From the NCBI GenBank assembly GCA_028285525.1, contig JANQOZ010000125.1, forward strand, positions 34,773 to 98,772: a stretch of 64,000 nucleotides of DNA, in the 5' to 3' direction. A model generated the notes under the pieces. The model was given only the letters and a program-made list of their open reading frames with translations. It was not told the origin of the DNA and searched no databases. Source of the stretch: Lysobacterales bacterium (lineage in GTDB: Bacteria > Pseudomonadota > Gammaproteobacteria > Xanthomonadales > SZUA-38). A program made the position numbers and the translations under genes. This document shows positions 23,638 through 57,812 of the stretch, piece after piece (the first letter of the stretch is position 1; every line of letters starts with the position of its first letter).

Positions 23638-24216
23638 ATGGGTTTGTTTGCGCCGCTTTACGACACGACGTTGCGCTGGTCGCAGCACCGCCTGGCGCCC
23701 CGCTATCTGGCGGGCCTGAGCTTTGCAGAGTCCACCTTTTTCCCGGTGCCGCCAGACGTGATGCTGATCCCCATGGTGCTCGGCAAGCCTGCGCGTTGGC
23801 TACAGCTCGCGGGCCTGTGCACGGTCATGTCGGTCCTCGGCGGCCTGTTCGGCTACCTGATCGGGGTCTTTGCTTTCGAGCTGATCGAGCCGCTGCTGCA
23901 TCGCTTCGGCTACTGGGAGACCTTCGAGAAAGCGCAGGCCGGCTTTAAGGAGTACGGTTTCTGGGTGGTGCTGCTGGCGGGCTTTTCGCCCATACCGTAC
24001 AAGATCTTTACCATCGCCAGCGGCACGGTGGGCATGGCGCTGCTGCCCTTTGCGATCGGCTCGCTGATCGGCCGCGGCGGCCGGTTTTTCCTGGTGGCCG
24101 GGCTGATCCGGCTGGGCGGCGTCAAGGCGGCGGACAAGATCCGGCAGTATGTTGAGGTCTTGGGCTGGCTGCTGGTGGTGCTGGTCGTGGCGGCGGTACT
24201 GTGGCTGCGTCACTGA
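23638..24216 (+). CDS. YqaA family (VTT/DedA-related) membrane protein
   Basis: A 192-residue membrane protein with about four to five hydrophobic segments. The family pattern is visible in SFAESTFFPVPPDVMLIPMVL near the start, LFGYLIGVFAFE, and the second half-motif GFSPIPYKIFTIASGTVGM followed by LIGRGGRFFLVAGLI. This group is related to DedA and sits between pcm and nlpD in several gammaproteobacteria. The role is unproven; transport or lipid scrambling is suggested for relatives. It starts two bases after pcm and overlaps nlpD by 16 bases. Confidence 0.85.
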   Translation: MGLFAPLYDTTLRWSQHRLAPRYLAGLSFAESTFFPVPPDVMLIPMVLGKPARWLQLAGLCTVMSVLGGLFGYLIGVFAFELIEPLLHRFGYWETFEKAQAGFKEYGFWVVLLAGFSPIPYKIFTIASGTVGMALLPFAIGSLIGRGGRFFLVAGLIRLGGVKAADKIRQYVEVLGWLLVVLVVAAVLWLRH

Positions 24217-52366: not shown

Positions 52367-52443
52367 TGCGGGGTGGAGCAGTCTGGCAGCTCGTCGGGCT
52401 CATAACCCGAAGGTCGCAGGTTCGAATCCTGCCCCCGCTACCA
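52367..52443 (+). tRNA. metY: initiator tRNA-fMet (CAT)
   Basis: A 77-base gene with CCA encoded. Initiator identity: three G-C pairs in the anticodon stem (TCGGG / CCCGA) around CTCATAA, and the A11:T24 pair in the D stem. The acceptor pairs G2-C3-G4-G5-G6-G7 with C66 to C71 and leaves position 1:72 as T:T. Bacterial initiators normally have C1:A72; the mismatch is kept but the bases differ. As with E. coli metY it lies ahead of the rimP-nusA-infB operon. The symbol is by position only. Confidence 0.95.
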
Positions 52444-52450
52444 AATCCCG

Positions 52451-52480
52451 AAAAGCCCGGTTCTGCCGGGCTTTTCTTTT
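52451..52480 (+). terminator. intrinsic terminator after tRNA-fMet
   Basis: AAAAGCCCGG, loop TTCTG, CCGGGCTTTT, then CTTTT. A 10-bp stem with a T-tract seven bases after the tRNA. Confidence 0.9.
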
Positions 52481-52590
52481 GGGCGATCGTTAAGTTCCTG
52501 GCTGTTAGTGCACCGAGATTGGCTTTGGGCGGCGCCCCGGGTGCGTTAGCATCGCCGTCGTGTCTTTTTGACGACCTGGATCGCAACCGC

Positions 52591-53001
52591 ATGACCCCGG
52601 CTGAAATCATCACGCTCTCCCTGGAAATCGGCAACCGGATTGACGTCCAGTGGGGCCTGTTTGTCACGGTCCACATGGCGCTTCTCGGTGCGCTGGCGTA
52701 CGTGGACAAGCGGCTGCACCCTGCGGAAAAACTCTTCGCGATTGTGGTTTACCTTGGTTTTGCGGCGATCAACTACGGACAGATGAGCACGCAGCTGCAG
52801 CTGCTTAACGCGGCGTATGCAGACGTAGCCCGGCTGGCGGGCGAGGCCGGCGCCAGCGAACTGGTGCAGCGGATCGCGACCGAACACCAGGGCGTTCGAC
52901 GCTACGCTGGACTGGTCCTGAAGGTGAGCCACATTGCGATGCTGCTGCTGGTGATCCTGTCGCTCGTATTTCATCCGATCACGGCGAAGCGCAAAAAGTA
53001 G
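52591..53001 (+). CDS. small three-helix membrane protein, unknown
   Basis: The ORF track starts at 52519, but the ATG at 52591 (MTPAEIITLSLEIG) is a more natural start, giving 136 residues. Three hydrophobic helices are visible: WGLFVTVHMALLGALAYV, KLFAIVVYLGFAAINYGQ and VSHIAMLLLVILSLVFH, with a helical linker between the second and third and a basic tail TAKRKK. I recognise no family. It lies alone between the fMet terminator and the rimP leader and carries no strong ribosome-binding site. Confidence 0.6.
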   Translation: MTPAEIITLSLEIGNRIDVQWGLFVTVHMALLGALAYVDKRLHPAEKLFAIVVYLGFAAINYGQMSTQLQLLNAAYADVARLAGEAGASELVQRIATEHQGVRRYAGLVLKVSHIAMLLLVILSLVFHPITAKRKK

Positions 53002-53030
53002 CGCCGCTCTTCAGGCCTCCCCGACAGCGC

Positions 53031-53059
53031 TTGCCGCTAAAGGGCGCAAAAGGTAAAAT
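53031..53059 (+). promoter_or_regulatory. sigma70-type promoter of the rimP-nusA-infB operon leader
   Basis: TTGCCG, a 17-base spacer and TAAAAT, giving a start near 53066 and a leader of about 180 bases ahead of rimP. Confidence 0.65.
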
Positions 53060-53171
53060 CCCGCTTCGCCAAGCGCGGGCTCCCTCCGGACTCGGACAGT
53101 AACGCTGCTGGCAAGCGGAACTTCAGGCGGTACTGGCAACGGTCAGCACGTCTTAGAGAACGGGTTTATGG

Positions 53172-53199
53172 AGGCCTCCCTTGCGAGGCCTTTTTATTT
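53172..53199 (+). terminator. first leader terminator of the rimP operon
   Basis: AGGCCTC, loop CCTTGC, GAGGCCT, running into TTTTTATTT. A 7-bp perfect stem with a T-tract. Confidence 0.8.
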
Positions 53200-53217
53200 C
53201 CCCAAGGATTGTGAGGG

Positions 53218-53241
53218 ATGGGCCGCTGGCCCATTTTTTTT
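53218..53241 (+). terminator. second leader terminator, abutting the rimP start
   Basis: ATGGGCC, loop GCT, GGCCCAT, then eight T residues. It ends four bases before the proposed TTG start of rimP, so read-through is needed for any rimP expression from the upstream promoter. Confidence 0.85.
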
Positions 53242-53245
53242 GGCT

Positions 53246-53701
53246 TTGTCGATCAAGACGGACATCGAAGAACTGCTGGCGCCCCTGGTGGAAGACCTGG
53301 GCTATGAGTGGGTAGGTCTCGAATATCACCCACACCCCAGTAACGGCGTGCTTCGGGTTTACATCGATCAGCCGGAAACGGGGATCGGGCTTGAGGACTG
53401 TGCGCTGGTGAGCCGCGAAATCAGCGGCCTGCTGGACGTGAATGACCCGATTAAGGGTCACTACAACCTGGAAGTGAGTTCGCCAGGCATGGACCGCCCG
53501 CTGTTTAGTGCCGACCAGTTTGCCCGGTTTTCGGGTGAGCAGGTCAAGGTCTCACTGCACGCGCCAGTCGCAGGCCGCCGGAAGCTTCGGGGCACGATTG
53601 GCGCCGTTGAGGGTCAAACGATCAGGCTTCAGGTTGACGACGAGACCGTAGAAATTGATCACGCGGACGTGGCTAAGGCGCGTCTCGTACCGGAGTTCTG
53701 A
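53246..53701 (+). CDS. rimP: ribosome maturation factor RimP
   Basis: The track's ATG at 53168 would put the start before both terminators and add residues with no counterpart in the family. TTG 53246 (MSIKTDIEELLAPLVEDLGYE) gives 151 residues, as in E. coli, though no clear ribosome-binding site precedes it; TTG 53240 is an alternative. Landmarks: LRVYIDQPETGIGLEDCALVSR, LDVNDPIKGHYNLEVSSPGM, DRPLF and the Sm-like C-terminal KLRGTIGAVEGQTI. It matures the 30S subunit. First gene of the nusA operon. Confidence 0.92.
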   Translation: MSIKTDIEELLAPLVEDLGYEWVGLEYHPHPSNGVLRVYIDQPETGIGLEDCALVSREISGLLDVNDPIKGHYNLEVSSPGMDRPLFSADQFARFSGEQVKVSLHAPVAGRRKLRGTIGAVEGQTIRLQVDDETVEIDHADVAKARLVPEF

Positions 53702-53745: not shown

Positions 53746-55239
53746 ATGAGCAAAGAAATCCTGATGGTGGTTGACGCTGTCGCCAACGAGAAGGGCGTTG
53801 AGAAAGACGTCATTTTTGGCGCCATCGAGGCCGCGCTGGCCTCGGCCGCCAAGAAAAAGCGGATGGACGACATCGAGTGTCGCGTCTCCATCGACCAGCA
53901 CACCGGTGAGTATGAAACTTTCCGGCGCTGGGAGGTGCTGGACGACGAGGAGCTGTTCGAGTCGGAAGACCGCCACATCATGCTCGAAGACGCCCGTAAG
54001 GATCATCCGGATATCGAGGTGGGTGAGTTCATCGAAGAGCCGATGGAGAACCCCGAGTTCGGCCGGATCGCGGCGCAGGCTGCCAAGCAGGTGATCGTGC
54101 AGCGCGTCCGCGAGGCGGAACGCGCGCAGGTGGTCGAGGCTTTTGCCGACAAGGCGGACACCCTGGTGAACGGCATCGTCAAACGCGTAGAGCGCGGCAA
54201 CATCTATCTGGACCTCGGCAGCAACGCTGAGGCATTCGTGCCGCGCGAGCGCACCGTGCCCCGCGAGTCGGTGCGGCCGGGTGATCGCCTGCGTGGCTAT
54301 CTCTACGAGGTGCGTTCCGAGCTGCGCGGCCCGCAGCTGTTTGTGACCCGGACTTCGCCCCAGTTCCTGATCGAGCTGTTCAAGCTCGAGGTGCCGGAGA
54401 TCGGCCAGGGCCTGATCGACGTCATCGCTGCGGCCCGGGATCCGGGCATGCGGGCCAAGATTGCCGTGCGCTCGAACGACCCGCGCACCGATCCCATCGG
54501 CGCCTGCGTCGGCATGCGGGGCTCGCGGGTCCAGGCCGTGTCCAACGAGCTGTCGGGCGAGCGTATCGACATCATCCTGTACGACGACAACCCGGCGCAG
54601 TTTGTGGTCAACGCCATGGCGCCGGCTGAGGTTGTCTCGATCATGGTCGACGAAGAGAGCCAGTCCATGGATATCGCGGTGGCCGAAGACAAGCTGTCCC
54701 AGGCGATCGGCCGGGGCGGGCAAAACGTACGGCTGGCCAGCGAGCTGACCGGCTGGCAGCTGAACGTGATGACCGAAGAAGCGGCCGAGGAGAAGTCGGA
54801 CGCCGAGGCTGGCGCGGCGCGTGCGCTGTTTGTCGAGAAGCTCGACGTCGACGAGGAGATCGCGAACATCCTGGTGCAGGAAGGCTTCAGCAGCGTCGAA
54901 GAAGTGGCGTACGTGCCCGCGAGCGAGCTGCTCGAGATTCAGGAATTTGATGAGGGTGTGGTCGAGGAGCTGCGGTCGCGTGCCCGTGACGCGCTGCTGA
55001 CCCAGCTGATTGCGGTCGAGGAGAAGCTTGACGACGTCAAGCCAGCCGACGACCTGCTGGCGCTGGACGGCGTTTCCGAGCGGTTGGCGTTCCAGCTGGC
55101 GGCCCGCGGCATCGTCACCCAGGAAGACCTGGCCGAGTGCGCGGTTGACGAAATACTGGAAATTGACGGTCTCGACGAAGAGTCGGCGGCCGCGGTGATC
55201 ATGGCGGCGCGTGCGCCCTGGTTCGCCGAGGAAGAGTAA
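53746..55239 (+). CDS. nusA: transcription termination/antitermination factor NusA
   Basis: A 497-residue protein. The N-terminal domain binds RNA polymerase ([17 protein letters not shown]); the S1 domain is around [16 protein letters not shown], the KH domains around [17 protein letters not shown] and [17 protein letters not shown]. Two acidic C-terminal repeats follow ([18 protein letters not shown] and [20 protein letters not shown]), which in E. coli contact lambda N and RpoA. It controls pausing and termination and in E. coli regulates this operon. Confidence 0.97.
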
Positions 55240-55250
55240 GCGGAGTAACT

Positions 55251-57812
55251 ATGTCTGATGTGACAGTAAGGCAGCTTGCCGAAGTGGTAGGCATCCCGAT
55301 CGACCGAATGATGGAACAGCTGAGCGAAGCCAGCCTGTCTATCAGCGATCCGGATTCGACCATTTCCAACGCTGACAAAATGCAGCTTCTCACCCATCTG
55401 CGCAAAAGCCACGGTAAGGCGGAGCGAGACTTCACCGCGCCCGACAAGGTGACGCTGAAGCGTCGCTCGGTCAGTGAGCTGAAGGTGCCGGCCGGTGCGG
55501 GACGTGCCAAGACGGTGAACGTCGAAGTTCGCAAAAAGCGGACGTACGTCAAGCGCAGCGTTATCGACGAGAAGGAAGCGGCCGACCCGATGCGCGAGGA
55601 GGCCCAGCGCAAGCTTGAGGAGGTTCAGGCTGAGCGCGCCGCCGCCAAGGAGCAAGAGACGGCGGCCGAGAAAGAGCGCGAGCGCGTTCGCAGCGAGCAG
55701 GAGGCCGAAAAGGCCCGCCTGGCCGAAGAGGCGCGCCTGAAGGAAGAGGCGCAGGAAGCCGAAAAGGCCGCCGAAGAGGCGCGCCTGGCGGCGGAAGCGG
55801 CCGCCCGCAAGAGCGAGGAGGAAGCACGCCAAAAGGCCCAGCAGGAACGGGCCCGCAAAGAAGCGGCGGAGCGGGAGTCCGAGCGCAAGAAGTCCAAGCG
55901 CAAAGAAAAGAAGGGCGACACGCGCTACGGTCGTTCCGAGCTGCACGTGGCCGCCGACAAGAGCGGCATGCGGCGGAGCAGCCGGCGCGGCGGCCGGCGC
56001 AAGACCACCGAGACGTCCGACCAGCATGGCTTTTCGCGGCCAACCGCTCCGGTCAAGCGTGAGGTGGATATCCCGGAGACCATCTCGGTGGGTGATCTGG
56101 CCCAGCGGATGGCGGTTAAGGCCACCGAAGTCATCAAAGAGATGATGAAGATGGGCATGATGGCGACCATCAACCAGACCCTGGATCAGGACACAGCGAT
56201 CCTGGTGGTCGAGGAGATGGGACACACCGCGCGCGCCGCCGAAGAGAAGGACATCGAGACGCAGCTGCGCGAAGAGTACGACGAGGCGTCGGAAGATTCC
56301 GAGGTTCGCCCACCGGTTGTGACCGTCATGGGTCACGTCGATCACGGCAAAACCTCGCTGCTGGACCATATCCGGCAGACGCGGGTGGCGGCCGGCGAGG
56401 CCGGGGGTATTACCCAGCATATCGGCGCCTACCACGTGACCACCGACAAGGGCGTCGTGAGTTTCCTGGATACCCCGGGCCACGCGGCGTTCACCGCCAT
56501 GCGGGCCCGAGGCGCCCAGTCCACCGACATCGTGATTCTGGTGGTTGCCGCTGACGACGGCGTCAAGCCGCAGACGATTGAGGCGATCCAGCACGCACGA
56601 GCGGCTGAGGTGCCGATCATCGTGGCGATCAACAAGATCGACAAGCCGGAAGCCGACCCCGAGCGGGCTCGCCAGGAGCTGTCCAACCATGAGGTGATCT
56701 CCGAGGAGTGGGGCGGTGAAGACCAGTTTGTGCACGTTTCGGCCATCACCGGCCAGGGCGTGGACGAGCTGCTGGAGGCGATCCTGCTGCAGGCTGAGCT
56801 TCTGGAACTGAAGGCCGATCCAACCCGGCGTGCTGCCGGCGTGGTGGTCGAATCCTCGCTGGACAAAGGCCGTGGCCCGGTGGCGACGGTGCTCGTTCAG
56901 AACGGAACGCTGCGCCAGGGCGACATGCTGCTGGCCGGCCAGGAGTTCGGTCGCGTCCGCGCGATGTTCAACGAGGCGGGCGACACCATCGAAGAGGCTG
57001 GACCGTCGATTCCCGCGCAGATCCTGGGTATGTCCGGAACGCCGATGGCCGGCGACGAGGTGCTCGTGGTCGACAACGAGCGGAAGGCGAAGGAAGCCTC
57101 CTCCCAGCGGCAGGCGCGGCTTCGCGATGCGCGGCTGGCGCAGCAGCAGGCGGCCAAGCTCGAAAGCGTGTTCTCCTCCATGGGTGAGGGTGAGGTCAAG
57201 CAGGTGAACCTGCTGATCAAGGCTGACGTGCAGGGCAGCGCGGAAGCGCTCCGCGACTCGCTGACCAAGCTGTCGAACGACGAGGTGACGGTCAACGTCA
57301 TCAGCAGCGGCGTCGGCGGCATCACCGAGTCTGACGCCGTGCTCGCTCAGGCGTCCAACGCCATTGTCATCGGCTTCAACGTTCGGGCTGACGCAACCGC
57401 GCGGCGCATCATCCGCGAGGCGGAGATCGATCTGCACTACTACAGCGTGATCTACGACGCGCTGGACGAGGTGAAGAAAGCGATCACCGGCGTGCTGGGC
57501 ACCGAGACCAAGGAGCAGATCGTCGGCCTGGCTGAGGTCAGGGACGTGTTCCGTTCGTCCAAGCTCGGGGCGATCGCCGGCTGCATTGTGCTGGAAGGCG
57601 TGGTGCGACGGGCCAACCCGATTCGCGTCCTGCGCGACAACGTGGTGATCTACGAAGGCGAGCTGGAGTCGCTGCGGCGCTTCAAAGACGACGTTCAGGA
57701 AGTGCAGTCCGGCACCGAATGCGGCATCGGCGTGAAGCAGTACAACGACGTGAAGCCGGGTGACCAGATCGAGTGCTTTGAGCGGGTGGAAGTTGCTCGC
57801 ACCCTCGACTGA
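55251..57812 (+). CDS. infB: translation initiation factor IF-2
   Basis: An 853-residue protein. It starts [20 protein letters not shown] (IF2_N domain), passes through a long charged E/A/K/R-rich segment (about 115-225), a second IF2_N-like domain ([19 protein letters not shown]), and the GTPase: [31 protein letters not shown]. The beta-barrel and C-terminal domains that bind fMet-tRNA follow ([18 protein letters not shown]). It places initiator tRNA on the 30S subunit. Confidence 0.97.

Follow-up and report, generated by a model that had tools for sequence, protein, structure and literature searches.

Tandem terminators ahead of rimP-nusA-infB in a Lysobacterales bacterium, a probable NusA-responsive attenuator of the rimP-leader type

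In a Lysobacterales bacterium, the ribosome-assembly gene rimP opens the operon that also encodes the transcription factor NusA and the translation factor IF2 (rimP-nusA-infB). Directly in front of rimP we identified two intrinsic terminators in tandem, which very probably act as a transcription attenuator of the rimP-leader type with read-through into the operon, feedback by NusA being the most likely form of control. The element belongs to the rimP-leader attenuators, which are known and widespread, and does not represent a new type of system. The analysis covered a stretch of 64 kb (the window) from a genome of 6.2 Mb (G000), which was compared with a sister species of the same genus (G001), with a genome of the same family (G003) and with a survey of 107 rimP leaders from Gammaproteobacteria, in which starts were picked by a simple rule and terminators by a simple score.

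All features of the locus lie on the forward strand. At its upstream end, an initiator-type tRNA-Met gene (CAU; 52367–52443) occupies the metY position and is identical in the sister species. A hairpin belonging to this gene, AAAAGCCCGGTTCTGCCGGGCTTTTCTTTT, is found at about 52451–52480 and is largely kept in G001. Between the tRNA gene and the leader lies, in this genus only, a small gene of 136 amino acids read from ATG 52591 (52591–53001), whose homologue in G003 sits at another locus; a Pfam search with the longer open reading frame (52519–52998) returned no match. The entire segment separating tRNA-Met from the rimP leader (52444–53030) is present in both species of the genus and absent from the equivalent place in G003, where the first terminator stands immediately 3′ of the tRNA gene. 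Downstream of the leader, Pfam domains identify rimP (53246–53701, TTG start; RimP_N and C-terminal domain) and nusA, the second gene of the operon (53746–55239; NusA_N, S1, KH and HHH). They are followed by reading frames that we take to be infB (55251–57812), rbfA, truB, rpsO and pnp, named by recognizing their sequences without a search.

The first terminator, t1 (53170–53195), pairs GGAGGCCUC with GAGGCCUUU in a hairpin of 9 bp (53170–53193, −14.1 kcal/mol) and ends in T5 at 53191–53195. It precedes the second terminator, t2 (53213–53241), by 17 nt. The t2 element carries the general rimP-leader hairpin GGGCC-GCU-GGCCC within the core AUGGGCC-GCU-GGCCCAU (53218–53234), followed by T8 at 53234–53241; counting pairs to the T run, its hairpin (53213–53239) comprises 12 bp (z = −2.95). 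When the intergenic sequence 53002–53245 was shuffled 5000 times with dinucleotides preserved, no shuffle contained two terminators this strong and 24 contained one. The two hairpins and T runs ahead of rimP are not due to chance, which bears out the preliminary description, including its statement that four bases separate the T8 of t2 from the rimP TTG (53246). Across the rest of the window, on either strand, one other site reaches a comparable score, a strong hairpin with T5 at 24066–24089 on the forward strand.

A promoter-like site, TTGCCG-17-TAAAAT, is located at 53031–53059, with transcription expected to start near 53066. It matches the consensus at 9/12 positions and is weak on the motif alone (3 comparable sites were seen in 10 kb against 1.1 expected), yet the sister species conserves the two hexamers as well as the sequence that follows them. 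At the expected transcription start, a G+C-rich CCCGCTTCGCCAAGCGCGGG (53060–53079) is fully conserved in G001 and may serve as a ppGpp-sensitive discriminator. The coordinates of the start and of t1 and t2 make two short transcripts plausible, one of about 130 nt and one of about 175 nt. The 5′ part of the leader RNA (53066–53169) is partly conserved in G001, and no conserved fold was found in it, a comparison of two sequences, that of the window and that of the single other species of the genus. The earlier claim that the operon must depend on read-through or distant promoters was slightly too strong, as internal promoters further down the operon are possible; in E. coli, internal promoters are known for infB within the operon (PMC6511841).

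The terminators themselves are conserved within the genus. Between G000 and G001, 33/33 bases are identical in t1 and 33/33 from t2 up to the start codon, compared with 87% identity in rimP and 78% DNA identity in the small gene upstream. The same arrangement recurs in many of the 107 gammaproteobacterial leaders, which frequently show one terminator, in many cases directly 3′ of tRNA-Met, then a G-rich hairpin of the form GGGCC...GGCCC (or GAGCC...GGCTC) with T5–T9, and then rimP. A covariance model of t2, built from 37 t2 hairpins, none of them from the window's family, scored highest, over the entire genome of 6.2 Mb, at 53209–53245 (34.8 bits, E 3.4e-4; the model holds only five pairs, so most of this score reflects sequence). 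The runner-up scored 28.8 bits; judged by eye, it looks like a standard 3′ terminator that follows a gene resembling fructose-bisphosphate aldolase, and it was rejected as a rimP-type leader. In one leader of the comparison, from genome G002, the loop of t2 is enlarged to several tens of bases between AATGGGC and GCCCATTTTTTTT, and the hairpin lies more than 70 nt upstream of the rimP start.

Since the RimP domains match in the frame of TTG 53246 and the corresponding position of G003 holds an ATG (T8-GGT-ATG), we consider this TTG to be the start of rimP. No Shine-Dalgarno site within reach of the start fits in G000, G001 and G003; a candidate GAGGG (53213–53217) that the hairpin would bring near the start was dropped, because it is absent in G003. 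In these three genomes the T run ends 3–4 nt before the start, compared with at least 11 nt in all other leaders of the set. A class-wide pattern search for a T run near ATG gave 19 matches in 17/369 genomes, five of them at rimP. Three of these five have the T run about 4–7 nt from the likely start, as read by eye, and belong to unrelated genomes, which suggests that the tight arrangement of T run and start arose more than once.

Taking these observations together with published work, the leader can be pictured as follows. RNA polymerase would initiate from the promoter near 53031, with possible read-in from the tRNA-Met unit. On meeting t1 and then t2, part of the polymerase would stop, releasing the two short RNAs, and the remainder would continue into rimP-nusA-infB. 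Partial termination at both sites is most likely in this organism, judging by published work on other bacteria, and so is its dependence on NusA: this protein, encoded by the second gene, would increase termination at the two hairpins, whereby excess NusA would lower expression of its own operon. In E. coli, t1 and t2 are described upstream of rimP, and the same source, citing Bylund et al. 2011, mentions NusA feedback on the rimP-nusA-infB operon (PMC6511841). In addition, an RNA-seq study of Streptococcus agalactiae observed premature termination at rimP (PMC4448216), and a list of attenuator-derived sRNAs associated with ProQ includes the rimP leader (PMC5391140). The double attenuator put forward in the preliminary description is thus supported by its conserved position and structure across Gammaproteobacteria and by the published work on rimP leaders and NusA feedback.

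An alternative in which the RNA itself decides, through an antiterminator formed by the 5′ arms of t1 and t2, appears improbable. In G000, GGCCUCCCUUGC can indeed pair strongly with GUGAGGGA..GGCC (−19.1 kcal/mol), the arm pair of G000 itself (−15.4 kcal/mol) is the best among 53 t1 arms set against the t2 of the window, and Naville and Gautheret (PMC2965389) reported a potential antiterminator for the tandem gammaproteobacterial form. However, at the point where the 5′ arm of t2 has just emerged, the predicted probability of this pairing is 0.53 in G000 and 0 in G001, and in a permutation test over 53 leaders, t1-t2 pairs from the same leader had no advantage in stability over exchanged ones (p 0.44). 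Another candidate antiterminator, CCUCC of the 5′ leader with GGAGG of t1, was likewise predicted in G000 and has a probability of 0 in G001. As the predicted RNA-only antiterminator is not kept in the sister species, protein-dependent termination is the more likely reading. Similarly doubtful is the idea that the hairpins only end upstream transcripts, those of tRNA-Met and the small gene, with rimP expressed from promoters not recognized here. In relatives, t1 is often found directly 3′ of the tRNA gene, whose transcript it would terminate, and the promoter at 53031 scores just 9/12. Against this stand the separate hairpin of the tRNA-Met gene, the fact that t2 outscores every other terminator of the genome with a model from other genera, and the lack of any promoter-like site in a search between t2 and rimP, where four bases are left before the start codon.

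Two further readings place the emphasis on translation. The frame of rimP is open from an ATG at 53168 through both hairpins in G000 and G001, and the TTG is served by no Shine-Dalgarno site; a ribosome starting at this ATG might open the hairpins, as in leader-peptide attenuation. We regard this as highly improbable, because in G003 the hairpin is shifted to another frame with respect to RimP (T8-GGT-ATG versus T8-GGCT-TTG), so that RNA rather than protein is what is conserved between the genera; a coding extension of RimP through the hairpins was rejected on the same ground. The single position at which G000 and G001 differ in this stretch changes an amino acid, compared with 13% of positions differing in rimP. 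Somewhat less remote, although still unlikely, is a t2 that mainly occludes the start codon, with termination as a secondary role. The T8 lies 3–4 nt from a start without Shine-Dalgarno site in three genomes of the family, and a spacing of 4–7 nt recurs in a few unrelated genomes, but in most relatives the t2-type hairpin stands 14–50 nt upstream of rimP, mostly with a ribosome-binding site in between, and therefore occlusion cannot be its conserved role. In the window's family, t2 covers the ribosome-binding region and may lower rimP translation in the read-through RNA. A hairpin with two roles in this family, NusA-responsive terminator and lid on the SD-less rimP start, is a speculative and rather unlikely extension of the attenuator; if true, transcription and translation of rimP would be governed by a single element.

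The proposed comparison with Rfam gave a mixed result: RF01770 matches over its full length (53137–53239, model positions 1–102, E 0.14 over 1.5 kb), but with 25.9 bits the match remains below the gathering cut-off of 47 bits. None of 61 genomes of the order reaches this cut-off (0/61), and the model was discarded as a genome-wide detector, since chance matches elsewhere score equally. Rfam alone is therefore insufficient, and membership was established by position, the t2 model and conservation.

According to Naville and Gautheret (2010; PMC2965389), the rimP leader is the most frequent attenuator, has the stem GGGc...gCCC at a terminator-to-start distance of 4–130 nt, occurs in a tandem form in Gammaproteobacteria and has NusA as the best candidate regulator. 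The window agrees with the general form of this leader in its GGGc...gCCC hairpin and T run ahead of rimP-nusA-infB, and in having no conserved antiterminator. With 4 nt, its distance to the start is at the lower limit of the published values, and no ribosome-binding site lies between hairpin and start. With the tandem leader of RF01770 it shares two hairpins with T runs at similar spacing, the second terminator lying upstream of t2. It differs in t1, which reads GGAGGCCUC...GAGGCC and lacks the inverse motif CCCg...cGGG, and in the antiterminator pairing, which is not conserved in G001 or among the 53 leaders. The metY-rimP-nusA-infB locus of E. coli K-12 resembles the window in its initiator tRNA-Met, t1, t2 (GGGCUUUAGGCCC-U7) and TTG start of rimP. 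In E. coli, however, 17 nt with a G-rich ribosome-binding region lie between the T run and the start, compared with 4 nt in the window, and it is only in the window's genus that the tRNA is set apart from the leader by a small gene and a promoter-like site. Particular features are a t2 that adjoins the start codon, as also in G001 and G003, and, in this genus, a leader with its own conserved promoter-like sequence. Even so, t1 and t2 are unchanged within the genus. These results add a little-known lineage of the Lysobacterales/Xanthomonadales type to a form of control over the NusA/IF2 operon that is very widespread but has been little studied. The lineage offers a natural test case, with a leader that has been detached from the tRNA gene, carries a promoter-like site of its own and lies against the start codon.
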